DNA of 36,394 nucleotides from Pararhodobacter sp. (GTDB taxonomy: Bacteria; Pseudomonadota; Alphaproteobacteria; Rhodobacterales; Rhodobacteraceae). The position numbers and the translations under genes were made by a program. The stretch's first letter is position 1, and every line of letters begins with the position of its first letter. This document shows positions 1,830 through 19,547 of the stretch, in pieces. The notes below the pieces were generated by a model, which did not search any database, was not told the origin of the DNA, and saw only the letters and a list, made by a program, of their open reading frames with translations. The DNA is taken from positions 1 through 36,394 of the forward strand of contig JAFIED010000234.1 in the NCBI GenBank assembly GCA_020832805.1, given 5' to 3'.

Positions 1830-1839
1830 GTCAGCCCCC

Positions 1840-3787: not shown

Positions 3788-4923
3788 GCGGCGCGCCTCC
3801 AGTGCATGCGATAGCCGAGAAAGAATTCGGACCCGGCCACACTGATGATGAAAATCGCCTGGATCAGACGGATCAGTGCAAAGGGAATGCCAAAGAAGAC
3901 CTGCAGGCTCTGGCCCAGCATCATCAGCGTGGCCAGAAAGAACGCCGCGACGACCACGCCGACGGGGTTGTTCCTGGCCAGAAAGGCAATCAGAATGCCG
4001 GAAAACAGGTAGCCGACAAAGAAATCCTGTGTCAGGCGGCTTTCGATGCCGGCGACGATGGTAAAGCCGGCAAGCCCGCCCACCGCACCGGAGCCCAGCA
4101 CTGCCGCAATCGATATGCCGGCCACGGGCACGCCCAGGGCATGGGCCATGTGGCGGTTGTGGCGCAGCAGGTCCAGCAGATAGCCCAGCCGGCTTTTCGA
4201 CATCACCCACCACAGCGCCAATGCCAGGCCGGCCGCCAGAGGCACCGACCAGGTCAGGTTCTGCCAGCCCAGACGCGGCAACCGTTCTGCCGCGGCGAAT
4301 TGCTCGGAATGGGGAAAGCGGCTGGCCGGGTCCTGCCAGGGGCCGTACAGCAGATGCAGCAGCAGGTTGAAGGCGACGTAATTCAGCAGCAGCGTGGTGA
4401 TGACCTCGCTCATCGACAGGCGCGCCTTCAGCCAGCCGGGCCCGGCGATCCAGGCCATCCCGCCCAGGCAGGCAGCCAGGGCCATCAGGGGCAGCCGCAG
4501 AGGCTCTGGTCCGATGTCGTAAACGGCGACCGCCGTGGCCAGCACCGCCCCCAGGATCATCTGGCCCTCGATGCCGATGTTCCAGAAACCCACGCGAAAT
4601 GCGATGGATGTGGCCAGGCCCGCCACGACCAGCGGCGCCGTCTGGGCCAGAACCGAGGCCAGCGCGCGGGGGCTGTTAAAGGCGACCGATGACAGCTCGC
4701 GCCACAGATCGCCCGCGGGCACCCCGGCCCAGACCAGCAGCGCCACCGACAGCACCCCGGCCAGAAACAGTGCCGACAGATAGACGGTCGCACGCATGGC
4801 GCGCGAGACGGTCTGACGGGGTTCCAGCAGGGGCACGATGCGCAGGGACTGCCAGGCGGCGCGCGCGCGCCCCGTTCGGGGGACGATGGCAAAGGCCCCG
4901 GTTGCGGTTTCAGGCGTGCTCAT
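3784..4923 (-). CDS. ABC transporter permease, nucleoside/BMP type (first permease)
   Basis: 379 residues from ATG 4923, which overlaps the ATPase stop by 14 bases; a longer frame to 4953 is possible but would run further into the ATPase gene. After about 45 hydrophilic residues come several membrane helices of the BPD_transp_2 family. Family segments are FRVGFWNIGIEGQMILGAV, MSEVITTLLLNYVAFNLL and the loop MAHALGVPVAGISI. This is the longer of the two permeases found in BMP/nucleoside importers (NupP-like), and it pairs with the gene at 2897-3787. The operon order binding protein, ATPase, permease, permease is the standard one for this importer class. Confidence 0.9.
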   Translation of the reverse strand: MSTPETATGAFAIVPRTGRARAAWQSLRIVPLLEPRQTVSRAMRATVYLSALFLAGVLSVALLVWAGVPAGDLWRELSSVAFNSPRALASVLAQTAPLVVAGLATSIAFRVGFWNIGIEGQMILGAVLATAVAVYDIGPEPLRLPLMALAACLGGMAWIAGPGWLKARLSMSEVITTLLLNYVAFNLLLHLLYGPWQDPASRFPHSEQFAAAERLPRLGWQNLTWSVPLAAGLALALWWVMSKSRLGYLLDLLRHNRHMAHALGVPVAGISIAAVLGSGAVGGLAGFTIVAGIESRLTQDFFVGYLFSGILIAFLARNNPVGVVVAAFFLATLMMLGQSLQVFFGIPFALIRLIQAIFIISVAGSEFFLGYRMHWRRAA

Positions 4924-6403: not shown

Positions 6404-6408
6404 CTGCC

Positions 6409-7491
6409 TTATTGGCCTGTCACGCCGGCCACGAACCAGTCCATGCCCCACAGCGCGCCGTCATCCAGCACCGCACCCTCTGCAACGCGCAGGGTGCCGT
6501 CACGGTCGTACAGCGGGCCGGCGAAGACATGCATGCCGCCGATGATAGCCTCGCGTGCCTCCATGACGCGCGCAGCCAGGTCGTCCGGTACGGCGGGGCC
6601 GCAGCATGCGACATCGACTGCGCCATCGGCGATCGACAGGAATGCCCCGTAGGGCGCGGGCTCGAACGTGCCCGCCGAGACCGCCTCGATCGCCGAGCCC
6701 AGATAAAGATCCCATGTCCAGACTGAAGAGCATTGCGTGGCGGCGCTGAATTCCGACAGGTCACGGTGATGCCCGGTGGCAAAAATGCCGGCCTCGGCGG
6801 CAACGATCTGGGGTGTCGGCGTATCGACATGCTGGCCGATCACATCGGCGCCCTGTTCGATCAGCGCCTGGGTGGCCGCGCGTTCGCGCACCGGATCACC
6901 CCATGAGCCGGTAAAGACAACCGACAGTTCGACATCCGGGTTGATCTGGCGCGCACCCAGCAGATAGGCGTTTACGGTCCAGTTCACCAACCCGAACGGA
7001 TTGGCCGCAACAAAACCGATGCGGCCGGACTCGGTCAGCCCGCCCGCCACCATCCCGCACAGGTAATGGGTTTCATAGGTTCGTCCATAGACGCTTTGCA
7101 GATTCTGCGCGTTGGTGGTGCCGGCCGGATTGAAGAACATGATCTGCGGAAATTCGGCCGCCAGTTCTGCAAAGGTGTCGGAGTATCCGAAGGCCGAACC
7201 GATGATGATGTTTGCGCCGCGCTCGATGAACAGTTCGGCGGCGGGCCGGATCGCCGTTGCGGTTTCAGGGATTTCCGCCGCTTGTGCAATCCGTGTGCCA
7301 AGCGTTTCTTCCAACAGCTGGCGCGCCTCGTCGATCGATTGTGACCAGCCGCCGTCATTCGTCGGCCCATACAGGATTACCGCCGGGCGCGGGTTACCCA
7401 CAGCTGCCAGTTCGGCCTGCGCAGCGGGCGCAAGACCCAGCATTATGGTGCTGGCAGCGAGCGTCGGCATGACGCCTTTCAGTGCTTTCAT
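6409..7491 (-). CDS. BMP-family ABC substrate-binding protein (periplasmic)
   Basis: 360 residues of the basic membrane protein (PnrA/BmpA-like) family. The N-terminus is a Sec signal peptide ending in AAQA, without a lipobox cysteine, so the protein is probably free in the periplasm. The mature part begins with the family motif VILYGPTNDGGWSQSIDEAR and later has NIIIGSAFGYSDTFAELAAEFP and the AANPFGLVNWTVNAYLLGAR region. In known members these loops bind a purine nucleoside between two lobes. The start ATG 7491 is preceded by AGGGAAGG at a spacing of seven; the frame open to 7956 is upstream noncoding DNA. It is the first gene of the seven-gene minus-strand operon, and its neighbours suggest a heterocyclic ligand. 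Confidence 0.9.
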   Translation of the reverse strand: MKALKGVMPTLAASTIMLGLAPAAQAELAAVGNPRPAVILYGPTNDGGWSQSIDEARQLLEETLGTRIAQAAEIPETATAIRPAAELFIERGANIIIGSAFGYSDTFAELAAEFPQIMFFNPAGTTNAQNLQSVYGRTYETHYLCGMVAGGLTESGRIGFVAANPFGLVNWTVNAYLLGARQINPDVELSVVFTGSWGDPVRERAATQALIEQGADVIGQHVDTPTPQIVAAEAGIFATGHHRDLSEFSAATQCSSVWTWDLYLGSAIEAVSAGTFEPAPYGAFLSIADGAVDVACCGPAVPDDLAARVMEAREAIIGGMHVFAGPLYDRDGTLRVAEGAVLDDGALWGMDWFVAGVTGQ

Positions 7492-7551
7492 GGTCGATCC
7501 TTCCCTGATGACATTTTCTGCGGGCGTTCTTTCGGCATGGCGATTTCTCGG

Positions 7552-7592
7552 CTTGTGCCTGTCCTGGACCTTGTGCCTGGTCCGGCACGGAC
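7552..7592. repeat. Direct repeat and palindrome in the BMP promoter region
   Basis: CTTGTGCCTG occurs twice at exactly 18-base spacing. The second copy overlaps an inverted pair GGACC/GGTCC (7566-7583) and abuts the perfect palindrome GTCCG-gca-CGGAC. The cluster is 60-100 bases upstream of the BMP start codon, where a regulator would bind. This is seen in the sequence; the regulatory role is inferred. Confidence 0.45.
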
Positions 7593-7960
7593 AAGTTCGG
7601 ATGAATAGAGCTTGCACCGGGCCGGTGGTCGCACCAGCGCAACACGATGCCGGCAGGCGCTGTGGCGATTGTTTTTTTCCAAACGGACAAAAAATGAGCG
7701 AAAAACCCGCTGCAAATCCAATCCGGCGGCTGTTCCTTGCCGCGCAACCCCCGGGACGGGCGCAAGCGACGACCCAGATGCCGGCACGAAAATGGAATCG
7801 GCGCGGGTGTCCGCGTCGCGGATCACTCAGGGCGGGCAGGGCAGGGCAGGGCGGGCCAAGGCGCCTTTCAGCGCCGCTGAACGCGTTCGCCCCATATGAC
7901 GCGGGCTGCCGGCATCGCGCGGTCGAACGCGGCGCGCGCAAACCGGCGCAGGCCACCTAA

Positions 7961-8029: not shown

Positions 8030-8668
8030 ATGGCACAGGTCAAGAAAGCCGAGGTGCGCGACGCAATTCTGGATGCAGCCTTCCAGCTGTTTTCGGAAAA
8101 GGATTATGCCAGCACCACGATTGCCCAGATCGCGCGGGCGGCCGGCGTTTCGCAGGGCAACATCTATGTCTACTTTGCGTCCAAGCTTGATATCCTGTGG
8201 GCCGTGATGTCGCCCTGGTTGTATCGGCAGGTCGAATTGCTGGACCTGGAACTGGCACGAATCCCTGATCCCCACACCCGGGTAGAGCGTCTGTTGCTGG
8301 CAATCTGGGGCGAGATTCCGGATGCAGACAACAATCTGGCGGTAAACCTGGTGCAGGGTCTGGCGCTGTCGAAGCCGGGCGACAGTTACAGCCGGGATTT
8401 GCTGCGATTTCTCGAACTCCGCTTGACCCGCATGCTGCGCGATTGTCTGCCCCCCGAAAGATGGCACCTTTTGCAAGAGGACGATGCGCTGGCGCATCTG
8501 GTGTTCATGGCGTTCGACGGCTTTGTGCTGGGCGCACGGGTAAAGGGGCGCTCTGACCGCCTGGCCCAGACCGCGCGGCTGACAGCCAGCATGATCCTGG
8601 GGGTACCGGGCCCGGTGCCGCCAGCCGGCGTGCAGCGCCAGGAGGCCGTGATCAATAAAGATGTATAA
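8030..8668 (+). CDS. TetR/AcrR-family transcriptional regulator
   Basis: 212 residues. The N-terminal DNA-binding domain is clear: VRDAILDAAFQLFSEKDYASTTIAQIARAAGVSQGNIYVYFASKLDILWAV forms the three-helix HTH of the family (residues about 9-57). The remaining about 150 residues are the variable ligand-binding and dimerisation domain. Members are usually repressors released by a small molecule related to the genes they control. The start ATG 8030 follows GTGAGGACAC. The stop codon overlaps a 19-base inverted repeat that sits against a -35 box for the next gene, and another inverted repeat lies upstream of its own start. It probably controls the catabolic genes to its right, and perhaps the divergent importer operon. 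The effector is unknown. Confidence 0.9.
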   Translation: MAQVKKAEVRDAILDAAFQLFSEKDYASTTIAQIARAAGVSQGNIYVYFASKLDILWAVMSPWLYRQVELLDLELARIPDPHTRVERLLLAIWGEIPDADNNLAVNLVQGLALSKPGDSYSRDLLRFLELRLTRMLRDCLPPERWHLLQEDDALAHLVFMAFDGFVLGARVKGRSDRLAQTARLTASMILGVPGPVPPAGVQRQEAVINKDV

Positions 8669-8714
8669 TGAACAACATTTATTATTGACCGGTCTGCGCC
8701 TTGGCGACTAGCCT
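8666..8714 (+). promoter_or_regulatory. Promoter with overlapping inverted repeat for the catabolic operon
   Basis: The 19-base repeat TAATGAA-caaca-TTTATTA (8666-8684; arms match at six of seven positions) directly abuts a -35 box TTGACC (8685-8690). A weak -10-like TAGCCT (8709-8714) follows at 18 bases. A repressor bound here would occlude RNA polymerase. The repeat is AT-rich inside a GC-rich genome and begins on the TetR stop codon. The -10 box is poor, so an activator may be needed, or the true box may differ. Confidence 0.5.
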
Positions 8715-8755
8715 TCGTTCAAGACGTCCGATTCGTGAAGTTACCGGAGGCTATG

Positions 8756-9835
8756 ATGGAAGCGGCGATCCGTACGCAGGAACTGAACCCTGCCAAGCTG
8801 ACCTATCTGTTCAGAAAGCAGTTCGAGCTGTGCAAGGTGGGCCCGGGCCAGACCGTTGCCATCGTTTCCGACCTGGGCACGCGGCGAGAGTACATTCAGG
8901 CCGCCTTTGCCGCGGCCGACGAGATGGGCTTCGACATCTACGAAATGTGCGTCAACATGATCCCGGGCTGGACCAAGGTTGGCGTTCCGACCATCGGCAA
9001 GTGCAAGGGCACAGTCGATGCCCTGATGAAATGCGACATGATCCTGATCTTCCATGTGCCGCTGTTTGCCAAATGGCTGCGTGAAGTGCAGCAGGCCGGC
9101 GTTCGGGTGCAGATGATCATCGATGCGCCGGATGATCTGGAGCAGCTGCAATCGCCGCCGGGGCTGAAAGAGGCGGTGGTCCATGCGGGCAAGGTATATG
9201 AGCAGGCCAGCAATATTCGCGTCACCTCGCCGCACGGCACCGACTTCACCTATTCCCGCGGCGAATATCCGGTGATGATCCAGTACGGCATGGCTGATGA
9301 ACCGGGGCGGTTCGATCATTGGGGCGTGGGGCTGATCCATACTTTCCCGAACGAGGGCAGCGCGCGCGGGCGTGTCGTGATCAATCCCGGCGATATCGTG
9401 ATCCTGCCCTACTGCCGCTATGTCGTCGACAAGATTTATCTGGACATCGAGGATGGCCATGTGGTGTCGATCGAGGGCGGTGTCGATGCCACCTTGATGC
9501 GCGAATGGCTCAAGCGCGGCGAAGAGTTCGAGGGCGACCGCGACCCCTATGCCATCTCGCATCTGGGCTGGGGTCTGAACCCGCAATGCCGCTGGGATTC
9601 GATTGCGCTGTACGGCGATGCACCCGAGCGCAGCCGGGCAGCCGCGCGCTGTTTCCCGGGCAACTTCCTGTTCTCGACCGGGCCCAACAGCCAGGGCGGT
9701 GGCAAGCGCACCACGCGCGGTCACTACGATGTTCCAATGCGTGACTGCACCATCGAACTGGATGGCAAGGTGGTGGTCGAGCATGGCAATCTGGTCGATC
9801 CGGCCATGATCGTGCCGGCCGTGAACCGCGGTTGA
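8756..9835 (+). CDS. 2,5-dihydroxypyridine 5,6-dioxygenase (NicX)-type ring-cleaving protein, M29-peptidase-like fold
   Basis: 359 residues; the ATG at 8756 has GGAGG at a spacing of five (ATG 8753 and a GTG at 8735 are alternatives). The whole chain resembles Pseudomonas putida NicX, an Fe(II) extradiol-like dioxygenase that opens 2,5-dihydroxypyridine to N-formylmaleamate and is related in fold to M29 aminopeptidases. Shared blocks, recalled from the known protein, include YADEPGRWDHW (here YGMADEPGRFDHW), ISHxGWGL and GNFLFSTGPN. The iron ligands reported for NicX as His265, His318 and Asp320 match His269 (AISHLGWGL), His323 and Asp325 (RGHYDVP) here. It heads the structural genes of a plus-strand operon, followed by the CoxG-like protein and a Mo-hydroxylase. 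The substrate is probably a dihydroxylated N-heterocycle; whether it is exactly 2,5-dihydroxypyridine is not settled. Confidence 0.85.
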   Translation: MEAAIRTQELNPAKLTYLFRKQFELCKVGPGQTVAIVSDLGTRREYIQAAFAAADEMGFDIYEMCVNMIPGWTKVGVPTIGKCKGTVDALMKCDMILIFHVPLFAKWLREVQQAGVRVQMIIDAPDDLEQLQSPPGLKEAVVHAGKVYEQASNIRVTSPHGTDFTYSRGEYPVMIQYGMADEPGRFDHWGVGLIHTFPNEGSARGRVVINPGDIVILPYCRYVVDKIYLDIEDGHVVSIEGGVDATLMREWLKRGEEFEGDRDPYAISHLGWGLNPQCRWDSIALYGDAPERSRAAARCFPGNFLFSTGPNSQGGGKRTTRGHYDVPMRDCTIELDGKVVVEHGNLVDPAMIVPAVNRG

Positions 9836-9848
9836 CCGGGAAAACGCG

Positions 9849-10304
9849 ATGAAACTGGAAGGCTCCTTTCCCGTCTCGGCGCCACGCCCCGTGGTTTGGG
9901 AGGCGATCCGCGATCCCGGCCTGATGGCGCAATGCGTGCCGGGCTGCGAGATGGCCGAGCAGATCGACGATACCAGCTACCGGGCGCGTGTCCTGGTCAA
10001 GTTCGGGCCGATATCGGCGCGGTTCAATCTGGTGATCGAGATCGAACAGGAAATCGCCCTGGAGGAAGTGCGTTCGCGTGCCCGGGGTGAGGAGGGCACG
10101 AGAGCAAGCACCGTGTCCTCCACCAATATCCTGACACTGTCAGAGCCCGAGCCGGGAACCACCCTGGTTGCCTGGAGCACCGATTTCTCCATCAGCGGGC
10201 GGCTGGGGAAATACGGCATGGGCCTGATGCGCAAGAAGGTCGAAAGCCTGAGCGCCGAGTTCGTCAAGGCTTTCGCCGCCCGGCTGGAGGAGAGTGCTGC
10301 ATGA
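9849..10304 (+). CDS. CoxG-like SRPBCC-family protein
   Basis: 151 residues. The start of the chain, MKLEGSFPVSAPRPVVWEAIRDPGLMAQCVPGCEMAEQ, is the signature of the carbon monoxide dehydrogenase subunit G (CoxG) family with an SRPBCC (START-like) fold. Such proteins accompany molybdenum hydroxylases. In the CO dehydrogenase system CoxG helps recruit the enzyme to the membrane. No C-terminal membrane helix is visible here, so it may serve in assembly, substrate handling or membrane contact through another route. It sits 13 bases after the NicX-like gene and overlaps the next gene by four bases (ATGA), so it is co-translated with the hydroxylase subunits. Confidence 0.85.
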   Translation: MKLEGSFPVSAPRPVVWEAIRDPGLMAQCVPGCEMAEQIDDTSYRARVLVKFGPISARFNLVIEIEQEIALEEVRSRARGEEGTRASTVSSTNILTLSEPEPGTTLVAWSTDFSISGRLGKYGMGLMRKKVESLSAEFVKAFAARLEESAA

Positions 10305-11143
10305 GTTTCGTTGTTGCACCGCAGACCGTTGACGAGGCCATCGCCTTTCTTGCCGCCAACCCCGATGCGCGGCCGATGGCTGGCGGCGCCTCTCTGGTGG
10401 CGATGAAGAATGCCCGGCTGATCGAGGCCAGCCATTTTGTCAGCCTGGCCCGGATCGAGGCCCTGCGTGGCATTGGCCCGTCGGCCGCGGGGGGGCTGCG
10501 CATCGGCGGCATGATGCATCATCGCCAGATCGCCGAATGCGCCGATCTGACAGGCGGCTGGCAGATGCTGCGGCAGGCTGCCGGTCTGATTGCCAACCGG
10601 GTGGTGCGCAACATGGGCACCATCGGCGGCGCCATCGCCAATGCCGATCCGGCGGCCGATTACCTGCCGGTTCTGGCTTGCGCCGGGGCCGAGGTCGAAC
10701 TGGTCGGGCCGGATGGCCTGCGCCGCCTCGCTGTCGCCGATTATCTGGTGGACTGGTACGAAACCGCGCTGGAGCCTGGCGAGATCGTTACGGCAATCGA
10801 ACTGCCCGCCGGCGGTGATGGCCCCTCTGTCTATCGCAAGCTGGCGCGCACGCCGGGTGATTATGCAACCGTCTCGGTGGCCTGTGCGCGTGAAGGTGCC
10901 GGGCCTGATTCATCGGTACGGGTGGCGGTGGGCGCCTGCGGGCCCGCGCCGATCCGTGACCGCGACGCCGAGGCGGCGCTGGCAGGCCGGTTGCATGACC
11001 CTGCCGCCATAGCCGCATTCTGTGCAACACTGGCCGAACAGGCAGACCCTATCGACGATGTGCGCGGTTCGGCCGCGTATCGCTTGAAACTGATCCCCCG
11101 GATGGTTGCTGCGGCGATCAGGGATGTAACGGGAGACCGCTGA
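10301..11143 (+). CDS. Molybdenum hydroxylase FAD-binding (medium) subunit, xanthine dehydrogenase family
   Basis: 280 residues, the usual length of the CoxM/NdhM/QorM medium subunit. FAD-binding motifs are visible: MAGGASLVAMKN (residues 26-37) and NMGTIGGAIANADPAAD (104-120), the conserved TIGG loop. The C-terminal CO_deh_flav_C domain follows with YRKLARTPGDYATVSVA. The subunit takes electrons from the iron-sulfur subunit and passes them to an acceptor. The start overlaps the CoxG-like stop (ATGA), and its stop shares one base with the start of the small subunit (TGATG), so M, S and L are made in a coupled series. The M-S-L order is that of quinoline and nicotine oxidoreductases and of CO dehydrogenase. 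Confidence 0.92.
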   Translation: MSFVVAPQTVDEAIAFLAANPDARPMAGGASLVAMKNARLIEASHFVSLARIEALRGIGPSAAGGLRIGGMMHHRQIAECADLTGGWQMLRQAAGLIANRVVRNMGTIGGAIANADPAADYLPVLACAGAEVELVGPDGLRRLAVADYLVDWYETALEPGEIVTAIELPAGGDGPSVYRKLARTPGDYATVSVACAREGAGPDSSVRVAVGACGPAPIRDRDAEAALAGRLHDPAAIAAFCATLAEQADPIDDVRGSAAYRLKLIPRMVAAAIRDVTGDR

Positions 11144-11649
11144 TGGCAGGCAAGGAAGTCTTCGCATTGCAGATCAACGGCACCCGGCGCGAGATATTCG
11201 CACCCGGCGATGCCACGTTGCTGGATGTGCTGCGCGACGATCTGGCGCTGCGCGCCGCCAAGCGCGGCTGCAACCAGGGCGTTTGCGGCGCCTGTACCGT
11301 CATGGTCGACGGGGTGCCCGTGCGCGGCTGTCTGACCCTGGCCGGCGCCTGCACCGGGCGCGAGGTGACCACGCTTGAAGGGTTCGCCGACGACGCCGCG
11401 ATGCAGGCCCTGCAGGAAGCGATGATCCTGTCAGGCGGGGTGCAATGCGGTTTCTGTACATCGGGCATGCTGATCACGGCGCGTGATCTGGTGGCGCAAA
11501 CACCGGTCCCTGACGAGCCTGCCATCCGGTCCGCGCTGTCGGGCAACCTGTGCCGCTGCACCGGCTATGTGCGCATCGTCGAGGCCGTCACTGATGCCGC
11601 GCTGCAGCTTGCACGGCAAAAGGACACCAAGCGGGAGGCCGTTGAATGA
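11143..11649 (+). CDS. Molybdenum hydroxylase 2Fe-2S (small) subunit
   Basis: 168 residues. All eight cluster cysteines are present in family spacing. The plant-ferredoxin-type cluster uses Cys43, Cys48, Cys51 and Cys63 (GCNQGVCGACTVMVDG...GC). The second cluster, next to the Mo centre, uses Cys102, Cys105, Cys137 and Cys139 (QCGFCTSGM and LCRCTGY). The protein carries electrons from the molybdopterin subunit to FAD. No signal peptide is present, so the complex is cytoplasmic, consistent with CoxMSL-type enzymes. The stop overlaps the ATG of the large subunit by four bases. Very secure by motif. Confidence 0.95.
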   Translation: MAGKEVFALQINGTRREIFAPGDATLLDVLRDDLALRAAKRGCNQGVCGACTVMVDGVPVRGCLTLAGACTGREVTTLEGFADDAAMQALQEAMILSGGVQCGFCTSGMLITARDLVAQTPVPDEPAIRSALSGNLCRCTGYVRIVEAVTDAALQLARQKDTKREAVE

Positions 11650-14009
11650 GCATTGCAGTCACCATCCCGCCGGAAAAGCTGACCGGCACCGCCGTTGGCA
11701 AGTCCACACCGAAGCTGGAGAACCGCGAGAAAGTTCTGGGCCGGGCCGAATACATTGACGATCTGTACCGCCCCGGCATGCTGCACGCTGCCATTCTGGG
11801 GTCGCCGCACGCCCATGCGCGCATCCTTTCCTATGACGTGTCTCAGGCATTGGCCGCGCCGGGTGTTGTGGCTGTCATCACCGGCGATGATGTGCCCGAC
11901 GGGCGCATGGGCGCCTTCATCAAGGATGAACACGCGCTGGCCAAGGGCAAGGTGCTTTATCAGGGCGAGCCGGTGGCGGCCGTCGCCGCCGAGACCCTGG
12001 AACAGGCCCGCGCCGCCGTGAATCTGATCGAGGTCGAATACGAGGAACTGCCCGCTGTCCTGTCCCCCGAAGAGGGGCTGGCACCGGATGCGCCGATCCT
12101 GCATGAGAACCTGGATGCCTATTTCAAGGTTTTCGACGCAGGGTCAAAGGGCAATCTGTGTTCGCGTACCGAGTTGTCAGAGGGCGATGTCGACAGCGCC
12201 TGGGCCGAGTGCGCCGTGGTCGTCGAGGGCGAGTATACCACCGAACCGCAGGCCCATGTCGCCATCGAACCCTGCGGCGCCCTGGCCGAGGTCGATGCGC
12301 AGGGTCGTGTCACGCTGTGGTCGGCCAACCAGTCGGTTTTTCGCGTGCAGGCCAATGTCTGCGAAAGCCTGAACCTGCCCATGTCAAGGCTGCGCAGCCT
12401 GACCCCGCGGGTAGGGGCGGGTTTCGGCAACAAGATGGAGGCCCATGTTCAGCCTCTGACCGTGGCGCTGGCGATGAAGACGGGCCGCCCGGTCAAGTGC
12501 ATTCTGACGCGCGAGGAGGATTTCGAGATCGTCCGCGCCCGGCACCCGTTCAAGGTGCGCATGAAAACCGGCGCCGACGCCCAGGGCCGGCTGATTGCGC
12601 GCGACTGCGAGGTGTTGCTGGACTGCGGCGCCTTTGCCGATGACAGCCCCGGTGTGCTTGGCTATGCGCTGCTCATGTCGGGCGGGCCGTATCGCATTCC
12701 GAACCAGCGCGCGCGGGGCAAGCTGGTCTATACCAACAAGCTGCGCTTCGGGGCGTTTCGCGGCTTTGGCAACCCGCAGGTCGGTTTTGCCGGCGAACAG
12801 CAGATCGACCAGATCGCGCGCAAGCTGGGCATCGACCCCATCGAGATGCGACGCCGCAACATGCTGCGCGAAGGGGACGGCTGGTTTGCCGGACCGAAAG
12901 TTGCCTCGAACGGGTTGGCGCGATGCCTTGACGCGGTCGAGGCCGCCTCTGGCTGGGCGCGGCGCGATGCCATTTCGGCGGCACCGGGCAAGCGGCGCGG
13001 CAAGGGTATCGCCATATCGGCGCATATCTCGGGCCTGCTGGGCACCGGGGCGATCGTGCGGATGCTGGAAGACGGCACCATTGCGCTGAACACCGGCGCC
13101 ACCGACATTGGCCAGGGGTCTGATACCGTTCTGGCGCAGATTTGTGCCGAGGCGTTGCAGGTTCCGGTGGAAATGGTCAGCGTGGCCAGCCCCGATACCG
13201 ACGGCTCACCCTACAACTGGGGCACCACGGCCAGCCGCGTGACCTATACCACGGGCCGTGCCGTGGCCGGTGCCGCGCGCGATGTGCTGCGCCAGGCGAT
13301 GGATCACGCCGCCGAGATGCTGGATGTGCCGGTCGATCAGCTGGAACTGCGCGAGGGCGGGCGCATCGCCGTGAAGGGTGCCAATGTCGATCTGCCCTTT
13401 GCAGCGATTTCGGCGCGGGCGCATTGGGCCAAGGGGGGCCCCATCGTGGGCAGCCACTCGCTGGTGTTCGACGAGCCCACCCATGACCCCAAACGCGCCA
13501 TTGCGCTGGGCCTGCCGTTTCCGCGCATCGGGGTGTTCAGCTTTGGCGCCGTCGTCGTCGATGTCGAGGTGGACGAGGTCACCGGCCAGCCGCGGGTGGC
13601 CGAAGCCTGGAGCGCCATCGACGTGGGCCGGGCCATCAACCCGCGGCTGGTCGATGTCCAGATCGAGGGCGGATTCGTGCAGGGGATGGGCTTTGCCCTG
13701 TACGAGGCGATGGTCTGGGATGGTGCGCGCCTGGTGAACCCCTCGCTGATGGATTACAAGATCCCCACCAGTGCCGACACGCCGCCCATTCATTCCATCA
13801 TCGTCGAAGACCCTGAACCGAACGGGCCGTTCGGCGCAAAGGGCGCGGGCGAAATCGGGTTGAACCCCGTACCGGCGGCAATTGCCAATGCACTGACCCA
13901 GGTCGTCGGCGGGCCGCTGCATGCGTTGCCCATGACGCCGGAACGCGTGCTTGACCAGATGACCGGGCAAGCGGATGAACAGCCACAGGGGCAGGGCGAT
14001 GAAGCCTGA
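11646..14009 (+). CDS. Molybdenum hydroxylase molybdopterin-binding (large) subunit, aromatic/N-heterocycle type
   Basis: 787 residues, full length for the CoxL/XdhB large subunit. An Ald_Xan_dh_C domain spans residues about 20-140, and the molybdopterin-binding domain fills the rest. Key sites are GAGFGNKMEAHVQP (257-270), the active-site loop AFRGFGNPQ (370-378) and the catalytic base Glu736 in GAKGAGEIGLNP. The loop is the general hydroxylase type. It is not the AYRCSFR loop with the Cu-binding cysteine of true CO dehydrogenase, so this enzyme should hydroxylate an organic ring or aldehyde with water as oxygen donor. Its pairing with a NicX-like dioxygenase points to an N-heteroaromatic substrate. 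No molybdenum-cofactor maturation gene (XdhC/CoxDEF type) is seen nearby. Confidence 0.93.
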   Translation: MSIAVTIPPEKLTGTAVGKSTPKLENREKVLGRAEYIDDLYRPGMLHAAILGSPHAHARILSYDVSQALAAPGVVAVITGDDVPDGRMGAFIKDEHALAKGKVLYQGEPVAAVAAETLEQARAAVNLIEVEYEELPAVLSPEEGLAPDAPILHENLDAYFKVFDAGSKGNLCSRTELSEGDVDSAWAECAVVVEGEYTTEPQAHVAIEPCGALAEVDAQGRVTLWSANQSVFRVQANVCESLNLPMSRLRSLTPRVGAGFGNKMEAHVQPLTVALAMKTGRPVKCILTREEDFEIVRARHPFKVRMKTGADAQGRLIARDCEVLLDCGAFADDSPGVLGYALLMSGGPYRIPNQRARGKLVYTNKLRFGAFRGFGNPQVGFAGEQQIDQIARKLGIDPIEMRRRNMLREGDGWFAGPKVASNGLARCLDAVEAASGWARRDAISAAPGKRRGKGIAISAHISGLLGTGAIVRMLEDGTIALNTGATDIGQGSDTVLAQICAEALQVPVEMVSVASPDTDGSPYNWGTTASRVTYTTGRAVAGAARDVLRQAMDHAAEMLDVPVDQLELREGGRIAVKGANVDLPFAAISARAHWAKGGPIVGSHSLVFDEPTHDPKRAIALGLPFPRIGVFSFGAVVVDVEVDEVTGQPRVAEAWSAIDVGRAINPRLVDVQIEGGFVQGMGFALYEAMVWDGARLVNPSLMDYKIPTSADTPPIHSIIVEDPEPNGPFGAKGAGEIGLNPVPAAIANALTQVVGGPLHALPMTPERVLDQMTGQADEQPQGQGDEA

Positions 14010-14826
14010 GGATTACCCCGCGCAGGAACCCTTTACCAGCATCGGCGCGGCCTATCACGCCCGCATCATGCCGGCAGCCGCCAGCGTGCCGACCGTGGAA
14101 TGGCAGCATGGGGCCGACCCCTATCAGTCGGTCGCGCTGTATCCCGCGCAGGCGCCCCGGGGCGATACGCTGCTGCTGATCCATGGCGGCGGCTGGACCA
14201 GCGGGTACAAGGAATGGATGGCCTTCATGGCCCCGGCGCTGACTGCGCGCGGAATCACCGTGGCCAGCCTGGGCTATCGTCTGGCCCCGGCGCATGTCTG
14301 GCCCGCCTGTTTCGACGATGTGGCCGCCGGGGTGGCCGCGGTGGCGGCGCGTCTGGCCGCGCATGGCGGTGATCCGGCACGGCTGTTCGTGGGCGGGCAT
14401 TCGGCCGGTGGTCATCTGGCTGCGCTGCTGGCCCTGCGCACCGACTGGCAGGCGGCGCGCGGCCTTTCGCCGGATGTTGTCAAGGGGGCGCTGCCGATCT
14501 CTGGCACCTATCGTTTTGGCGAGGGCTCGGGCCTGTCGATGCGGCCCCGTTTTCTGGGCGATGGGGCGCTTGGCAACGAAAAACCGGCCTCGCCCGTGAC
14601 CTGGCTGCACGCCAAGGCGCCGCCCTTCCTGGTCGCCTGGGGCGAACAGGATTTTCCCCATCTGCGCACTCAGGCACAAGAGTTTGCCCGTGACCTGGCC
14701 AGGCTGGGCGTCAAGGTGGAAACATGCGAACTTTCCGGCGCCGATCATCTGGGCGCCAGCTATGCCTCGGGCGAGGTCGATGGCGTCTGGGCAGGCGCCG
14801 CCGATGCCTTCATCCGCAAGATCTGA
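13999..14826 (+). CDS. Alpha/beta hydrolase, HGGGW esterase / arylformamidase-like
   Basis: 275 residues from ATG 13999, which overlaps the end of the large subunit by 11 bases; the frame also opens at 13975. The catalytic set can be read: oxyanion motif HGGGW (62-66), nucleophile Ser135 in GGHSAGGH, Asp218 in AWGEQDFPH and His250 in GADHLGAS. HGG-x-W with a GHSAG elbow is typical of the hormone-sensitive-lipase and kynurenine-formamidase group, whose members cleave esters or N-formyl amides. In pyridine pathways the step after NicX is deformylation of N-formylmaleamate (NicD, also an alpha/beta hydrolase). This protein is well placed to do the same job, although it is of a different subfamily. 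That role is inferred. Confidence 0.85.
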   Translation: MKPEDYPAQEPFTSIGAAYHARIMPAAASVPTVEWQHGADPYQSVALYPAQAPRGDTLLLIHGGGWTSGYKEWMAFMAPALTARGITVASLGYRLAPAHVWPACFDDVAAGVAAVAARLAAHGGDPARLFVGGHSAGGHLAALLALRTDWQAARGLSPDVVKGALPISGTYRFGEGSGLSMRPRFLGDGALGNEKPASPVTWLHAKAPPFLVAWGEQDFPHLRTQAQEFARDLARLGVKVETCELSGADHLGASYASGEVDGVWAGAADAFIRKI

Positions 14827-14868: not shown

Positions 14869-16041
14869 ATGATCAGACGTCAGATGCTAGGACTAATGGC
14901 CGGGGTGGCGGCGTTCGCCGGCGCCTGGGCCCCGGCCATGGCCGCCGATCCGGTGCGGATCGGCTATACCATTGCCCGCACCGGGCTGTTCGCGGCCGCC
15001 GCGCCCAGCCAGGAACAGGCCTATACGCTGTGGGCCGAACAGGTGAATGCCGCCGGTGGGCTGAATGTTGCCGGCGAGATGCGGCCGGTGGAATTCGTCA
15101 CCTATGACGACGAAAGCGACCCGTCGATGGCAGCGCAGCTTTATGAAAGGCTGATCACCTCAGACGGGGTTGATCTGCTGGTCGCGCCCTGGGGCACACC
15201 GCATCATCTGAACGTGGCGGGTGTGGTCGAGCGGTATGGCTTTCCGATGGTCGGCAACACCGCCGCGTCGGTCATGATCCGTCAGGTGCAGCCGGGCAAC
15301 ATATGGTTCCCCACCGCCGCCATCCCTGACCGGATAGGGCCGGAACTGGCGCGGATGCTGGCCGAGGCGGATATCGGATCGGTGGCGATCCTGGCGAATG
15401 TGCTGCCCTTCAGCCAGGAAAACCTGCAGTTCCTGACCCCTGCACTGCAGGCCGAGGGAATCGAGATCGTGATGTCGCAGAACTACCCGCCCGACATTAC
15501 CGACATGACCCCGCTGCTGACCCAGGTTCGCAGTGCCGCACCTGACGCCGTGCTGGCGCTGACCTACCCTGCCGATGCGTTCCTTTATGCCGGGCAGGCC
15601 CGCGAACTGGGGCTGGCGCCCAGCCTGCAGTTCATGCTGATCGGGCCGACCATCGATGCGTTCGGACAGGCCTTTGGCCCGCTTGCCGACGGAATCGTGA
15701 CGCTGGCGCATTGGTCACCGGAGCAGGATGCCTGGCCGCGCGCGCGGCCTTTCTTCGACGCCTATGTCGAACGCTTCGACCAGGAGCCCGATTACCTGGA
15801 TTCGGCGCTGGCCTTCATGTCGGTAGAGATCCTGCAGCAGGCCGTGGCCGAGGCCGGGCTGGACCGCGATGCGCTGCGCGCAGCCATTGCCGGCGGCACC
15901 TTTGACACGATCAATGGCGAAGTGCGTTTCGATGGTGTCGAGAATGCCGTGACACCGACGGCTTTCGTGCAGCGTCAGGACGGCCGCATGCAACTGGTCT
16001 GGCCGCCCGAGATCGCCACCGCGCCCCTGATACAGCGCTAG
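14869..16041 (+). CDS. Branched-chain amino acid-type ABC substrate-binding protein (LivJ/K family)
   Basis: 390 residues. The signal peptide MIRRQMLGLMAGVAAFAGAWAPAMA is cut after Ala25. The mature protein is a type I periplasmic binding protein of the Peripla_BP_6 family, with openings DPVRIGYTIARTGLFAAAAPSQEQAYTLWAEQVNAAGG and VEFVTYDDESDPSMAAQLYERLI. It would capture the ligand and deliver it to the two permeases downstream. The family binds amino acids but also many aromatic acids, amides and ureas. Its place after catabolic genes suggests an aromatic or N-containing ligand. The start follows GGGAG in the short gap after the hydrolase gene. A strong hairpin follows the stop codon. Confidence 0.92.
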   Translation: MIRRQMLGLMAGVAAFAGAWAPAMAADPVRIGYTIARTGLFAAAAPSQEQAYTLWAEQVNAAGGLNVAGEMRPVEFVTYDDESDPSMAAQLYERLITSDGVDLLVAPWGTPHHLNVAGVVERYGFPMVGNTAASVMIRQVQPGNIWFPTAAIPDRIGPELARMLAEADIGSVAILANVLPFSQENLQFLTPALQAEGIEIVMSQNYPPDITDMTPLLTQVRSAAPDAVLALTYPADAFLYAGQARELGLAPSLQFMLIGPTIDAFGQAFGPLADGIVTLAHWSPEQDAWPRARPFFDAYVERFDQEPDYLDSALAFMSVEILQQAVAEAGLDRDALRAAIAGGTFDTINGEVRFDGVENAVTPTAFVQRQDGRMQLVWPPEIATAPLIQR

Positions 16042-16160: not shown

Positions 16161-17048
16161 ATGATCGACACGCTGCTTTCCGGACAACTGCTGTTCGCCG
16201 CGGCTGTTCTGGGTGCGCTTTATGCACTGATCGGGCTGGGGCTGAATCTGGTCTATGGCACCATGCGGCTGCTGAACATCGCGCATGGCGATTTCCTGAT
16301 GCTGGGCGCCTTTGCAGCATTCTGGTGGTTCACCCTGACGGGAGTGTCGCCGCTGCTGGCCCTTCCCCTGATTGCGGCGGCGGGGGCGGCCATCGGGCTG
16401 GTGCTTTATGCGCTGATCTTTCGGCACCAACTGGCGCAGGGTCTGGCGCCTGCCGTGATCGAGGCGCGCTCGCTGTTGCTGTTTTTCGGTGTGTCGGTGG
16501 TGATCCAGAACCTGATGGCGATGGCGTTCTCGGCAACGCCGCGTGCCTATCGCCACCTTGATACCGTTTATCACATCGGCCAGACCGCCATGACAGGCAA
16601 CCGCATCGCCTCGTTGCTGGTTGCCAGTGCGATGCTGGTGGCGGTGATGGCCTTTCTGAACCGCACCCTTTTCGGCATGGAGATCAAGGCACTGATCCAG
16701 CACCGTGATGCCGCAAGGATCGTCGGCATCAATGTCGGCCGGGTCCAGGCGGTGGCCATCGGGCTTGGCTTTGCCTCGGCGGCGATTGCCGGCGTCCTGT
16801 TGTCGATGACCGAACAGGTGACGCCCTTCATGGGGTTCCGCTTTACCATCGCCGCCTTCGTGGTGATCATCATGGGCGGGCTGGGCAACATTCGCGGCGG
16901 CATCGTGGCCGGCTTTCTGCTGGCGATCATCGAGGTCTATGCCGTGTCGATCTTTTCCGCCGAGGTCAGGTCGATCCTGATCTACGGCGCCTTTGTCGCG
17001 ATCCTGCTGATCCGGCCCCAGGGCCTGTTGGGACGCGCGCGGTCATGA
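16161..17048 (+). CDS. Branched-chain amino acid-type ABC permease (LivH family)
   Basis: 295 residues, nearly all membrane helices. The N-terminal AALYALIGLGLNLVYGTMRLLNIAHGDFLMLGAF block is the standard LivH opening. The MDIKALIQHRDAARIVGINVGRVQA-like coupling loop (here starting MEIKALIQ) follows, then the FVVIIMGGLGNIRGGIVAGFLLAIIE segment near the C-terminus. It forms the translocation pore with the LivM-type protein encoded next. The start ATG 16161 follows AAGGAAA at a suitable spacing. The stop overlaps an ATG at 17045, although the true LivM start is probably 54 bases further on. Confidence 0.92.
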   Translation: MIDTLLSGQLLFAAAVLGALYALIGLGLNLVYGTMRLLNIAHGDFLMLGAFAAFWWFTLTGVSPLLALPLIAAAGAAIGLVLYALIFRHQLAQGLAPAVIEARSLLLFFGVSVVIQNLMAMAFSATPRAYRHLDTVYHIGQTAMTGNRIASLLVASAMLVAVMAFLNRTLFGMEIKALIQHRDAARIVGINVGRVQAVAIGLGFASAAIAGVLLSMTEQVTPFMGFRFTIAAFVVIIMGGLGNIRGGIVAGFLLAIIEVYAVSIFSAEVRSILIYGAFVAILLIRPQGLLGRARS

Positions 17049-17098
17049 GTGGCGGGACAGGATACACGAACACCCCGCCCCAACACAGGGAGCAAGGC

Positions 17099-18016
17099 AT
17101 GACCGGCATGGTGTCCAGGCAGGATGTGCTGGCCGTGGCAATCACCGTGGCATGCGCGATGGCGCTATATCTGGGCGGCATGCAGGCCGGCCCCTATTGG
17201 CAGATCGTGGCCCTGAACCTGGCGATGTGGATCGCGTTGACCCAAAGCTGGAGCCTGTTTTCAGGTCTTACCGGCTATGTCTCGCTGGGCCATGTCTTTG
17301 CCTATGGGCTGGGTGCCTATCTGATGGCCACGCAGTTTCGCGAATTGCCGGTCTGGTTGCTGGTGCCTCTTGGCGGGCTGCTGGCGGGTGCCTTTGCGCT
17401 GATCATCGCGGTGCCGGTGCTAAGGGTGCGCGGCCCCTATTTCGTGATCCTGACGCTTGGTCTGGCGGAACTGCTGAAATTTGCGCTGCTGAGGCTGGAA
17501 ACGGCGCTGGGTGCCTCGTCACGGCTGCTGTTTGGCGCGCCGGGCACGCCCACGCTGCTGGCCTGGATGGTGGCACTGGCTGTTGCCGCAACGCTGCTGC
17601 GCCATTTTGTCGGGGTGTCACGGTTCGGGCGCGGCCTGGTGGCGATCCGCGAGGATGAGACCGCCGCCGAAACGCTGGGCGTGCCGGTGACACGCTACAA
17701 GGCTTTGGCCTTTGCCCTGTCCGCGGTCATTCCGGGGATGGTGGGCGCGGTGATGGCGCTGCGCTCGACTTATTTCGAGGTGATGCAGGTCTTTTCGCCC
17801 ACGATCTCGTTCACCATCGTCACCATGGCGATCATCGGCGGGGCGGGCGATGCGCGCGGCCCGGTGCTGGGCGCGCTGTTTCTGGTCGGCCTGTCAGAAC
17901 TGCTGCGCGGCGCCTCGCCCCAGCTTTATCTGATCATGCTGGGCTTCAGCCTGATCATCTTTGTGCTGTTCGCCCCCAACGGCATGGTTGGATTGCTGAA
18001 AGGACGGCGCGCATGA
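17099..18016 (+). CDS. Branched-chain amino acid-type ABC permease (LivM family)
   Basis: 305 residues from ATG 17099, chosen because GGGAG lies six bases upstream and the family similarity begins soon after. An in-frame ATG at 17045 overlapping the LivH stop would add 18 poorly conserved residues. The protein has about eight to ten membrane helices, the LivM landmark SLFSGLTGYVSLGHVFAYGLGAYL, the coupling loop GLVAIREDETAAETLGVPVTRYKALAFALSA, and FTIVTMAIIGGAGDARGPVLGAL. It pairs with the LivH-type permease. The stop overlaps the next ATPase start (ATGA). Confidence 0.9.
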   Translation: MTGMVSRQDVLAVAITVACAMALYLGGMQAGPYWQIVALNLAMWIALTQSWSLFSGLTGYVSLGHVFAYGLGAYLMATQFRELPVWLLVPLGGLLAGAFALIIAVPVLRVRGPYFVILTLGLAELLKFALLRLETALGASSRLLFGAPGTPTLLAWMVALAVAATLLRHFVGVSRFGRGLVAIREDETAAETLGVPVTRYKALAFALSAVIPGMVGAVMALRSTYFEVMQVFSPTISFTIVTMAIIGGAGDARGPVLGALFLVGLSELLRGASPQLYLIMLGFSLIIFVLFAPNGMVGLLKGRRA

Positions 18017-18795
18017 CGCTTCTGGTAGTTGACCGGCTGGAAAAGCGTTTCGGCGGGCTGAAGGCGCTGGACGACGTGTCGCTGACCGTTGCCGAAGGCA
18101 CGATCCACGGGCTGATGGGGGCCAATGGCGCCGGCAAGACAACGCTGTTCAGCATCATTGCCGGCAACCAGCGCGCCAGCAGTGGCAGCATCCTGTTTGA
18201 CGGAGAGCAGATCGACCGCAAGCGGCCCGATGCGATTTGCCGCATGGGCATTGCGCGCACCTTTCAGATCGTGCGCCCCTTTGCCCAGTTGAGCGTGCGC
18301 GAGAATGTCGAAACCGCGGTGCTGTTCGGGCGCGTGCCGGCGCTGCCGCGCGGCCAGATGGGGCGGCTTGTGAGCGGGATTCTGGATGAATGCGGCCTGG
18401 GGGCGCTGGCCGACCGGCCAGCGGCCAGCCTGACCCTGTCAGGGCGCAAGCGTCTGGAGGTGGCGCGCGCATTGGGCACCGGGCCACGGCTGCTGATGCT
18501 GGACGAGGTCATGGCCGGGCTGACCCCGGCCGAGGTGGTGGAGATGATGGCAGCCCTGCGCCGGGTCAAGGAACACCATGGCCTGACGATCCTGATCATC
18601 GAGCATGTGATGAGCGCGCTGAACCAGATGTCTGACCGTATCACCGTGCTGCACCGTGGCCGACTGATCGCCGAGGGCAGCCCGGACCAGATCGCCGCTG
18701 ATCCGCAGGTGGCCGAGGCATATTTCGGCATTGATGACGACGAAGAGGATGACGCGGTCAATGGTTCCGGCGTCACGCAGCAGGTGGCGCCATGA
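18013..18795 (+). CDS. Branched-chain amino acid-type ABC ATPase (LivG family)
   Basis: 260 residues. Walker A is GANGAGKT (36-43), Walker B is LLMLDE (159-164), and the switch His lies in IIEHVMSAL. The signature reads LSGRKRLEVARAL (from residue 141) instead of the common LSGGQQ; the RKRLE form is a recognised variant in this ATPase subgroup and is followed by the typical EVMAGLTPAE. The C-terminus carries a LivG-type tail ending in an acidic stretch (DDDEEDDA). It powers the importer together with the LivF-type ATPase. The start and stop both overlap neighbours by four bases. Confidence 0.92.
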   Translation: MTLLVVDRLEKRFGGLKALDDVSLTVAEGTIHGLMGANGAGKTTLFSIIAGNQRASSGSILFDGEQIDRKRPDAICRMGIARTFQIVRPFAQLSVRENVETAVLFGRVPALPRGQMGRLVSGILDECGLGALADRPAASLTLSGRKRLEVARALGTGPRLLMLDEVMAGLTPAEVVEMMAALRRVKEHHGLTILIIEHVMSALNQMSDRITVLHRGRLIAEGSPDQIAADPQVAEAYFGIDDDEEDDAVNGSGVTQQVAP

Positions 18796-19547
18796 CGGCG
18801 GCAGACATCCCCGGCGCGGCAGCGGCAGCGGCGGCGCGGTCGCTGTCGGTGCGCGGACTGCACGCCGGCTATGGCGAGGTGCTGGTGTTGCGCGGGGTCG
18901 ATATCGATGTGCGCGAGGCGGCAATCACCGCCGTCCTTGGGGCGAATGGCGCGGGCAAAAGCACGCTGATGCAGGTGCTGGCGGGGTTGATCGCGCCCAG
19001 CGCCGGACAGATCACCCTGGCTGGCAAGCCGATTGGTGCAACACCGACGCATCAGCGCGTGGCCAGCGGCATCGTGCTGGTGCCAGAGGGGCGCAAGGTA
19101 TTTCCTGAACTGACCGTGCGCGAAAATCTGATGCTGGGCGCGGTGACACCCCACGCCCGCCCCGGACGCGACGCCATGATGGCGCAGGTCTGCACCCTGT
19201 TTCCGCGCCTGCAGGAACGCATGGAACAGGCCGGCGGTACGCTGTCAGGTGGCGAACAGCAGATGTTGGCATTGGGGCGCGGGCTGATGGCCCGGCCAAA
19301 CGTGTTGTTGCTGGATGAACCCACGCTGGGCCTTGCCCCGGCCATCGCGCGCCAGATCTTTCGCATCGTGCCCCGGCTGCGTGCCATGGGCATCACCGTG
19401 CTGATCGCCGAACAGGATCTGCACCGCACGCTCAAGATCGCCGATCATGCCTATGTGCTGGAAAACGGCGTTGTCGTCGCGCAGGGCGCCGGCCGGGACC
19501 TGGAGCGCGACCCGGCCGTGCGGCGCGCCTATCTGGGGCATGACTGA
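18792..19547 (+). CDS. Branched-chain amino acid-type ABC ATPase (LivF family)
   Basis: 251 residues. After an alanine-rich start (residues 8-16) the ATPase core shows LHAGYGEVLVLRGVDIDV, Walker A GANGAGKS (50-57), the family block GIVLVPEGRKVFPELTVRENLMLGA, signature LSGGEQQMLALGRGL (from 151), and Walker B LLLDEPTLGLAPA. These are standard LivF features. It is the last gene of the plus-strand operon, and a GC-rich hairpin follows the stop. The alanine-rich extension before the first strand is longer than usual, so a slightly later start is possible, but the ATGA overlap with the previous gene favours this one. Confidence 0.92.
   Translation: MTAADIPGAAAAAAARSLSVRGLHAGYGEVLVLRGVDIDVREAAITAVLGANGAGKSTLMQVLAGLIAPSAGQITLAGKPIGATPTHQRVASGIVLVPEGRKVFPELTVRENLMLGAVTPHARPGRDAMMAQVCTLFPRLQERMEQAGGTLSGGEQQMLALGRGLMARPNVLLLDEPTLGLAPAIARQIFRIVPRLRAMGITVLIAEQDLHRTLKIADHAYVLENGVVVAQGAGRDLERDPAVRRAYLGHD

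Follow-up and report, generated by a model that had tools for sequence, protein, structure and literature searches.

A variant NicX-type gene set in Pararhodobacter sp. that recurs widely among relatives

The DNA analysed here (the window) is a stretch of 36,394 nucleotides from Pararhodobacter sp., and it holds a variant NicX-type pathway unit that is widespread among relatives. One gene of this unit encodes NIC, a predicted NicX-subfamily non-haem Fe(II) ring-cleavage dioxygenase whose family, judged by sequence, is a subfamily separate from canonical NicX, with the same iron site and a changed substrate contact. The gene set probably imports, oxidises, and ring-opens a nitrogen-containing ring compound.

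All genes of the unit lie on the plus strand. A TetR-family gene (8030..8668; Pfam TetR_N), probably the local operon regulator, precedes NIC (8756..9835), which is followed by a CoxG-like protein that is a probable Mo-hydroxylase helper (9849..10304; Pfam PF06240, 63.9 bits), the Mo-hydroxylase subunits for FAD (M, 10301..11143; Pfam FAD_binding_5/CO_deh_flav_C), 2Fe-2S (S, 11143..11649; Pfam Fer2/Fer2_2), and Mo cofactor (L, 11646..14009; Pfam Ald_Xan_dh_C/MoCoBD_1/MoCoBD_2; nearest solved relative, 4-hydroxybenzoyl-CoA reductase alpha), and an alpha/beta hydrolase, HYD (13975..14826; Pfam Abhydrolase_3/BD-FAE), with Ser143/Asp226/His258 and an HGGGW oxyanion motif. The initial annotation had assigned NIC, CoxG, a complete M-S-L enzyme, and an HGGGW hydrolase to one operon that lacks a flavin monooxygenase, and the open reading frames, Pfam domains, and gene content are as it described. 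It had not included the TetR gene or the five-gene Liv-type ABC importer that extends the operon to 19547. The importer comprises a binding protein (14869..16041; Pfam Peripla_BP_6) and, as assigned from gene order and a reading of the sequence, LivH-like (16161..17048) and LivM-like (17045..18016) permeases and LivG-like (18013..18795) and LivF-like (18792..19547) ATPases; all five are conserved beside NIC. Most aligned HYD homologues begin at Met9 of the window protein, so the true HYD start is probably 13999. An operator search upstream of NIC (8669-8760) found no inverted repeat of at least 12 bases.

A PDB sequence search with NIC returned NicX as the only homologue at a meaningful score (E 5e-62); at an E threshold of 0.001, neither Pfam nor NCBIfam gave a match to NIC. 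When compared using Foldseek, the NIC model (pLDDT 81) gave TM scores of 0.89/0.92 to NicX (7cn3) versus ∼0.5-0.6 to M29 aminopeptidases. The iron ligands claimed in the initial annotation, His269, His323, and Asp325, align with His265, His318, and Asp320 of NicX, and the fourth NicX ligand, Ser302, corresponds to Ser307 of NIC. The four ligands (His, Ser, His, and Asp) and Arg293 are each retained in 85 of 86 aligned sequences, the remaining one being gapped. The substrate-binding His189 of NicX is His188 in NIC, and this position is His in 81 of the 86 sequences (otherwise Leu in two, Met in one, Gln in one, and a gap in one). The features common to NIC and NicX/Hpo, the 2,5-dihydroxypyridine 5,6-dioxygenase (PDB 7cn3, 7cup), are the fold, the His-Ser-His-Asp site, the Arg that positions the Asp, and His189. 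On the basis of the alignment and the model, NIC is a true NicX homologue and a predicted Fe(II) ring-cleavage enzyme. The fold and the retained ligands place it with NicX and rule out an M29 aminopeptidase identity.

NIC and NicX part at one of the known substrate contacts. According to the available portion of PMC7910607, the NicX substrate is bound by Glu177 and His189, the E177A variant retains 2.7% activity, and no NicX substrate besides 2,5-dihydroxypyridine is reported. The NicX-type proteins encoded at 12 control loci share 34-39% identity with NIC, and the NIC proteins (n = 88, support 0.91) and the canonical-type proteins (n = 12, support 0.898) form separate clades. In this comparison, only sequences longer than 300 residues entered the canonical-type set, an Ensifer paralogue (outside any nic cluster, with Thr at 177) was excluded from it, and six f33-type paralogues were treated separately. 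Gln (Gln176 in NIC) replaces the substrate-binding Glu177 in 88/88 NIC-family members, whereas Glu is present in 12/12 canonical-type proteins. C317G, W187F, P191G, L103P, and E108W are fixed in the same way (88/88 versus 12/12), E308Q is found in 82/88 against Glu in 12/12, and Y251W is a further fixed exchange, toward a larger residue.

The neighbourhood of NIC was compared across 81 loci, including the window, with neighbours counted by tblastn (ORF-based counts undercounted small genes). The loci are of unequal length; 56 extend 6.5 kb or more past NIC in the downstream direction and were treated as usable, and the other 25 stop short of this, so absences across all 81 are lower-grade evidence. 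The common unit among relatives is TetR-NIC-CoxG-M-S-L-hydrolase-Liv importer, and its recurrence in the same order in many other species indicates that the gene order is not due to chance. In the usable loci, L was found near NIC in 38/56 (34 of these at 49% identity or more; the other four, just 31-38% identical, may be other Mo-hydroxylases), M in 36/56, S in 36/56, CoxG in 34/56, HYD in 40/56, and L together with HYD in 34/56. In 36/56, a TetR relative is found no more than 11.5 kb from NIC, usually in divergent orientation to it. HYD occurs without L in six of the 56 (L024, L029, L032, L033, L034, and L075), and in several loci lacking the Mo-hydroxylase it follows NIC immediately. Cultured relatives that have both NIC and HYD include Variovorax and Pusillimonas noertemannii, the second of which has no Mo-hydroxylase near NIC. 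The pathway is not uniform, as judged from the 12/56 loci with neither L nor HYD, the weak L matches, and a gentisate-dioxygenase-like cupin in 10/81 loci. HYD, CoxG, and TetR were found in 0/12 of the canonical-type control loci.

M, S, and L carry complete cofactor domains and the catalytic Glu, as expected for a xanthine-oxidase-family Mo-hydroxylase. The three-subunit layout, the catalytic Glu, and the Arg of the AFRGFG motif are shared with enzymes of the 4-hydroxybenzoyl-CoA reductase/xanthine dehydrogenase type. In contrast to xanthine oxidase, L has Met at the position of Glu802 (xanthine oxidase numbering), and the enzyme scores under every NCBIfam equivalog cut-off listed, including that of xanthine dehydrogenase, so that xanthine dehydrogenase proper is not matched. 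Esterases and lipases, and no formamidase, appear among the 50 PDB matches listed when the modelled HYD structure was compared. HYD had no significant BLAST match to six NicD-type proteins, in agreement with the earlier suggestion that the hydrolase belongs to another subfamily than the nic/pic deformylase, and NicD-type queries matched 10/81 NIC loci weakly. HYD would probably hydrolyse the ring-opened amide.

The divergent gene set, comprising a BMP transporter, a 2OG oxygenase, and a cysteine hydrolase, is not conserved beside NIC in relatives. The cysteine hydrolase (727-1410, minus strand; PF00857) is the last gene of this set, as initially annotated, and it weakly matches three of five NicF-type proteins (27-35%, 48-49 bits); its proposed membership in the pathway was not upheld, with one 28% match in the other 80 loci. 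The BMP transporter was likewise rejected as a pathway component. ABC importers lie beside NIC in L027, L034, L049, L051, and L079, and their ATPases are 31-33% identical to the ATPase of the window BMP transporter and 46-92% identical among themselves, which indicates a different transporter. The binding protein of that importer looks ribose-type from its sequence. A role of the window BMP ATPase in B6 transport was also discarded, as its best NCBIfam name, putative B6 transporter, reached 384 bits where the cut-off is 670.

The window was compared with known nic/pic clusters (flavin monooxygenase-NicE-NicD-NicX-NicF) carried on Caballeronia, Azospirillum, and Pantoea plasmids. The genes are here named NicC-F; the plasmid records call the partners monooxygenase, Asp/Glu racemase, alpha/beta hydrolase, and isochorismatase family protein. 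As in the window, the NicX-type enzyme of these clusters is accompanied by an alpha/beta hydrolase, and some clusters also carry a Mo-hydroxylase or a Liv-type importer. They differ in having a flavin monooxygenase, a maleate isomerase, and a maleamate amidase, of which the window operon lacks the first two and a clear form of the third, whereas the window has CoxG and a hydrolase of another subfamily. The Pararhodobacter assembly is ∼90% complete, which makes absences from it weak; within it, we found one NicX homologue, no canonical nic/pic set elsewhere, and four relatives of NicC-type flavin monooxygenases (33-37% identity). The maleate isomerase that the initial annotation noted as absent was likewise not recognised in this assembly, where the NicE query finds only an arylmalonate decarboxylase gene (23%). 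The sole PF17645 (Amdase) match (272 bits) was dismissed as a maleate isomerase candidate because it fits the arylmalonate decarboxylase equivalog at 270.5 bits (cut-off, 225).

Two genome samples were used for co-occurrence. In 25 genomes with NIC, hand-picked from the 80 other loci, mostly for longer contigs and not at random, a canonical-type NicX is also present in 10 (one copy in pieces); PF17645 occurs in 23 of the 25 and is too broad as a co-occurrence marker. Two NIC genomes carry genes read as a NicE-NicD-NicX-NicF set. In 385 sampled genomes of the same class, a NIC member accompanies another full-length homologue in seven, and the second NicX-type copy was read in five of these (G404, G130, G304, G382, and G182, with G210 and G280 left out). 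The samples are not independent, as G130 is apparently the same genome as G024 (NIC 100% identical).

We lean toward reading the unit as a catabolic operon under TetR control whose substrate would be a small, polar N-heteroaromatic and not free 2,5-dihydroxypyridine. The Liv-type importer would take the compound into the cell, and the M-S-L Mo-hydroxylase, aided by CoxG, would put an oxygen derived from water on the ring next to the nitrogen. NIC, with Fe(II) and O2, would break the ring C-C bond adjacent to the nitrogen, in the manner of NicX, to give an N-acyl amide of the N-formyl type, which the Ser-Asp-His triad of HYD would hydrolyse; the remainder would enter central metabolism through enzymes encoded outside the operon. 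The substrate class, the step order, the bond cleaved, and the action of HYD as an amidase are what we infer. Because canonical-type NicX accompanies NIC in 10 of the 25 genomes, NIC is probably not for free 2,5-dihydroxypyridine, and together with the family-wide substitutions this lends support to the earlier guess that the substrate and intermediates may be new.

Even so, the unit might serve 2,5-dihydroxypyridine in a route of the 3-hydroxypyridine (hpd) kind: the Mo-hydroxylase would make 2,5-dihydroxypyridine from 3-hydroxypyridine or a related compound, NIC would convert it to N-formylmaleamate, HYD would deformylate the product, and maleamate would be handled elsewhere. We regard this as rather unlikely, although it needs a Mo-hydroxylase and a NicX-type enzyme and no flavin monooxygenase, and the available part of PMC6525221 records just such a conversion of 3-hydroxypyridine by way of 2,5-dihydroxypyridine to N-formylmaleamate, with alpha-hydroxylation and then an Fe(II) dioxygenase, as proposed for the window. 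Gln can still hydrogen-bond a 2-pyridone, which leaves 2,5-dihydroxypyridine a possible substrate, and the Phe that NIC has at the mobile-gate His105 of NicX may be no obstacle, since H105F NicX is active (PMC7910607, available portion) and Phe also occurs in 7/8 canonical-type plasmid proteins. A NicF-like gene is present in L002 and L033 and a NicE-like gene (27%) in L002. Yet L002 is the only one of the 81 loci with NicE near NIC, and the lack of a recognised maleate isomerase in the assembly, the dissimilarity of HYD to NicD-type proteins, the canonical-type NicX already present in other genomes, and the exchanges E177Q, E308Q, and others fixed in the family all count against this route.

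A benzo-fused N-heteroaromatic (indoxyl- or hydroxyquinoline-type) is quite unlikely; in that case NIC would yield an N-formyl aryl amide, HYD would be an aryl formamidase, and the aminoaryl or hydroxyaryl acid would proceed to gentisate-, anthranilate-, or CoA-type cleavage. Aromatic-acid breakdown genes do lie near NIC in L039 (salicylyl-CoA 5-hydroxylase equivalog), L033 (3-hydroxybenzoate 6-monooxygenase), and L041 and L077 (benzoate/anthranilate-type Rieske oxygenases, at scores below cut-off), but neither the window nor its closest long relative, L002, showed such sets. The ten cupin loci also favour this idea, but only L041 among them has HYD (four of the ten have less than 4.6 kb downstream). 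C317G, W187F, and P191G shrink residues and, should these positions line the pocket, would make room for a larger substrate, whereas E108W and Y251W go the other way. It is very improbable that NIC gave up ring cleavage for a different metal-dependent reaction, such as the hydrolysis carried out by the M29 aminopeptidases, its distant fold relatives: Foldseek ties the fold to PepS, AmpS, and AmpT (E 8e-15 to 5e-13), but NicX is the nearest fold by a wide margin and its four iron ligands and ligand-positioning Arg are kept. 

The Gln177 subfamily may, with a probability somewhat below even, be a second widespread NicX-type lineage whose own substrate would probably be a substituted or benzo-fused hydroxylated N-heteroaromatic, degraded by a pathway that bypasses maleamate and maleate.

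The NIC subfamily is present in 15 of the 385 sampled genomes, including that of the window, and further loci, by record title, are mostly from alpha- and betaproteobacteria with some from gammaproteobacteria. Searches of open-licence papers, covering listings and the first lines of abstracts, turned up no description of this operon, and paper listings for homarine gave no matching gene set. Plasmid homologues bear names that include 2,5-dihydroxypyridine dioxygenase and leucyl aminopeptidase, so similarity-based annotation may mislead for the NIC family too. The NIC family, a cleanly separated sister subfamily whose iron site is unchanged while a substrate contact differs, and which is tied to a conserved operon, would offer a direct test case for how specificity changes in NicX-type enzymes.

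The NicX-like protein of the window (NIC; 8756-9835, plus strand) gave NicX, the Fe(II)-dependent 2,5-dihydroxypyridine dioxygenase, as its top PDB match by phmmer (E 5e-62, residues 11-349), followed by antibody chains and a designed protein at E values of at least 0.04. The AlphaFold2 model of NIC (mean pLDDT 81) matched NicX in Foldseek with TM scores of 0.89 and 0.92 (E about 1e-37), and M29 aminopeptidases ranked behind it at about 0.5 to 0.6. NIC has all four residues that bind Fe(II) in NicX according to PMC7910607 (His269, Ser307, His323, and Asp325), and Arg298 is the counterpart of NicX Arg293; each of these five positions was identical in 85 of 86 aligned sequences, with one gap, in an alignment that takes in three more distant paralogues. 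The initial annotation had allowed that NIC might instead group with M29 aminopeptidases lacking ring cleavage; because the ligands are kept and both fold and PDB match are those of NicX, that reading is rejected and the NicX identity survives. PMC7910607 also states that a DALI search with the full-length protein yielded no obvious homologue, although Foldseek (model of window 8756-9832) connects the NicX-type fold with M29 aminopeptidases.

NIC lies outside the canonical NicX group. The substrate contact His189 of NicX is retained (His188), and Glu177 is replaced by Gln176. When 88 members of the NIC family were aligned with 12 canonical-type proteins and six further paralogues and placed in a tree, the NIC family and the canonical type formed separate clades with supports of 0.91 and 0.898, respectively. 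The canonical-type sample comprised NicX, eight proteins from clusters with racemase-type NicE, hydrolase, and isochorismatase genes, and three (from Peribacillus, Variovorax, and locus L150) with partial or other surroundings. Differences fixed between all 88 family members and all 12 canonical-type proteins include E177Q, C317G, W187F, P191G, L103P, E108W, and Y251W, and E308Q distinguishes 82 of the 88 from all 12; position 105 does not discriminate, since seven of eight canonical-type plasmid proteins have Phe there. In a sample of 385 genomes of the class, every full-length homologue was either at least 61% or at most 40% identical to NIC; the closer group occurred in 15 genomes, the window's included. 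Loci L039 (6436-7491), L040 (6460-7506), L050 (3130-4191), and L147-L149 hold NicX-related paralogues of a third type, remote from NIC and canonical NicX alike; in three of the aligned sequences, apparently those from L039, L040, and L050, position 177 is Val. The NIC gene of a Ruegeria lacuscaerulensis contig (L005, 10001-11074) contains one internal stop and may be a pseudogene or reflect a sequencing error.

The operon begins with a TetR gene (8030-8668, plus strand), and NIC is followed on the same strand by genes for a CoxG-like protein, the FAD (M), 2Fe-2S (S), and Mo-cofactor (L) subunits of a Mo-hydroxylase, and an HGGGW alpha/beta hydrolase (HYD, ending at 14826); neighboring genes in the stretch between NIC and HYD overlap or are at most 14 bases apart. 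Five genes of a Liv-type ABC importer extend the operon to 19547, past the end initially assigned to it. The divergent set (727-7956, minus strand) encodes a BMP-type binding protein with an ATPase and two permeases, together with a 2OG-Fe(II) oxygenase and a cysteine hydrolase of the isochorismatase type. This importer, oxygenase, and hydrolase set is not conserved beside NIC in relatives and may be an independent system for uptake and degradation; the initial proposal that the cysteine hydrolase is part of the pathway is not supported. Elsewhere in the window are a tRNA gene (281-354, minus strand), a single 3313-residue ORF with bacterial Ig-like domains (24770-34711, minus strand) that probably encodes a giant surface or secreted protein, and a 421-residue ORF (21644-22909, plus strand) that opens with a sigma-70 region 2 and closes with an anti-sigma-K RskA C-terminal domain. 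The latter ORF is either a sigma/anti-sigma fusion or a product of misassembly, and it adjoins a DUF4394 protein gene (20621-21418, minus strand).

By sequence comparison, the operon is conserved among NIC relatives. We sampled the best 80 of 125 relatives from one scan, giving 81 loci with the window, and counted neighbors by tblastn over 11.5 kb around NIC; 56 loci (window included) had at least 6.5 kb downstream. Among these 56, L was found in 38 (identity was ≥49% in 34 and 31-38% in the other four), M and S in 36 each, CoxG in 34, HYD in 40, the importer binding protein in 33, and TetR in 36. Both L and HYD were present in 34 loci, only HYD of the two in six, only L in four, and neither in 12. 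The same query proteins were run on 12 control loci, 11 of them holding a canonical-type NicX and one a divergent paralogue: HYD, CoxG, and TetR were found in none, M in one, S in three, and L in three. Several loci without the Mo-hydroxylase have HYD directly after NIC (e.g., L024, L029, L032, and L034), so HYD would act on the NIC product. In a deeper branch (L140, L142-L144) NIC adjoins HYD and more alpha/beta hydrolases lie nearby; NIC has no Mo-hydroxylase as a direct neighbor there.

The closest PDB relative of L is 4-hydroxybenzoyl-CoA reductase, followed in order by 6-hydroxypseudooxynicotine dehydrogenase, CoxL, quinoline 2-oxidoreductase, and xanthine oxidase, and L fell below every NCBIfam cut-off listed. 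It retains the catalytic Glu and the Arg of AFRGFG and has Met at the position of xanthine oxidase Glu802. In HYD, the HGGGW motif and Ser143, Asp226, and His258, presumed from motifs to be the catalytic triad, are invariant in 17 aligned members; its model (pLDDT 87.7) had HSL-type esterases and lipases among the 50 matches listed. HYD showed no meaningful BLAST match to six NicD-type proteins, and gene order together with the NicX precedent suggests that it may be an amidase or formamidase.

The canonical nic set differs from these surroundings: near NIC, a NicE-like sequence occurred in one of the 81 loci (L002, 27%), NicF-like sequences in five, the window's cysteine hydrolase counted, and weak NicD-like matches in ten. 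The window's genome, whose assembly is about 90% complete, holds one NicX homologue; a NicE query there matched only the gene of its sole Amdase, an arylmalonate decarboxylase (23%), and the NicF-like protein of L002 shares 40% identity with a protein encoded elsewhere. Relatives of the NicC-type flavin monooxygenase also lie outside the operon in this genome, with identities of 33-37% for four of them and 27% for one more, so a flavin monooxygenase encoded at a distance may take part. Canonical-type NicX also occurs in 10 of 25 NIC genomes examined (73-81% identity to the Caballeronia protein, one in pieces), and two genomes, G404 and G130 (the latter apparently G024 of the 25), carry a NicE-NicD-NicX-NicF set in addition to the NIC operon. 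Other second copies that were read (G304, G382, and G182) are of the third paralogue type.

A gentisate-dioxygenase-like cupin lies near NIC in 10 of 81 loci; it matched the structure of a gentisate dioxygenase at E 9e-53, and its score of 238 bits fell short of the 442-bit cut-off. Six members of this group, when compared, shared 55-91% identity among themselves and 30-36% with other cupins seen. At other loci, NIC has as neighbors a salicylyl-CoA 5-hydroxylase, a 3-hydroxybenzoate 6-monooxygenase, or benzoate/anthranilate-type Rieske oxygenases; none of these genes, nor the cupin, was seen in the window. Such neighbors fit a substrate leading into ordinary aromatic-acid breakdown. In L049 (14573-19531), an aconitase-family gene downstream of NIC and the cupin and an apparent PrpF-type isomerase gene, recognized from its sequence, hint at processing of a ring-cleavage product in that branch.

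The core of the initial annotation, a NicX-type protein with a Mo-hydroxylase and a hydrolase, stands, and its suggestion of a related ring-opening route is strengthened, although probably not one for free 2,5-dihydroxypyridine. The proposed chemistry is of a known kind; what is new is a distinct, widespread NicX-type subfamily whose substrate is probably not the canonical one.
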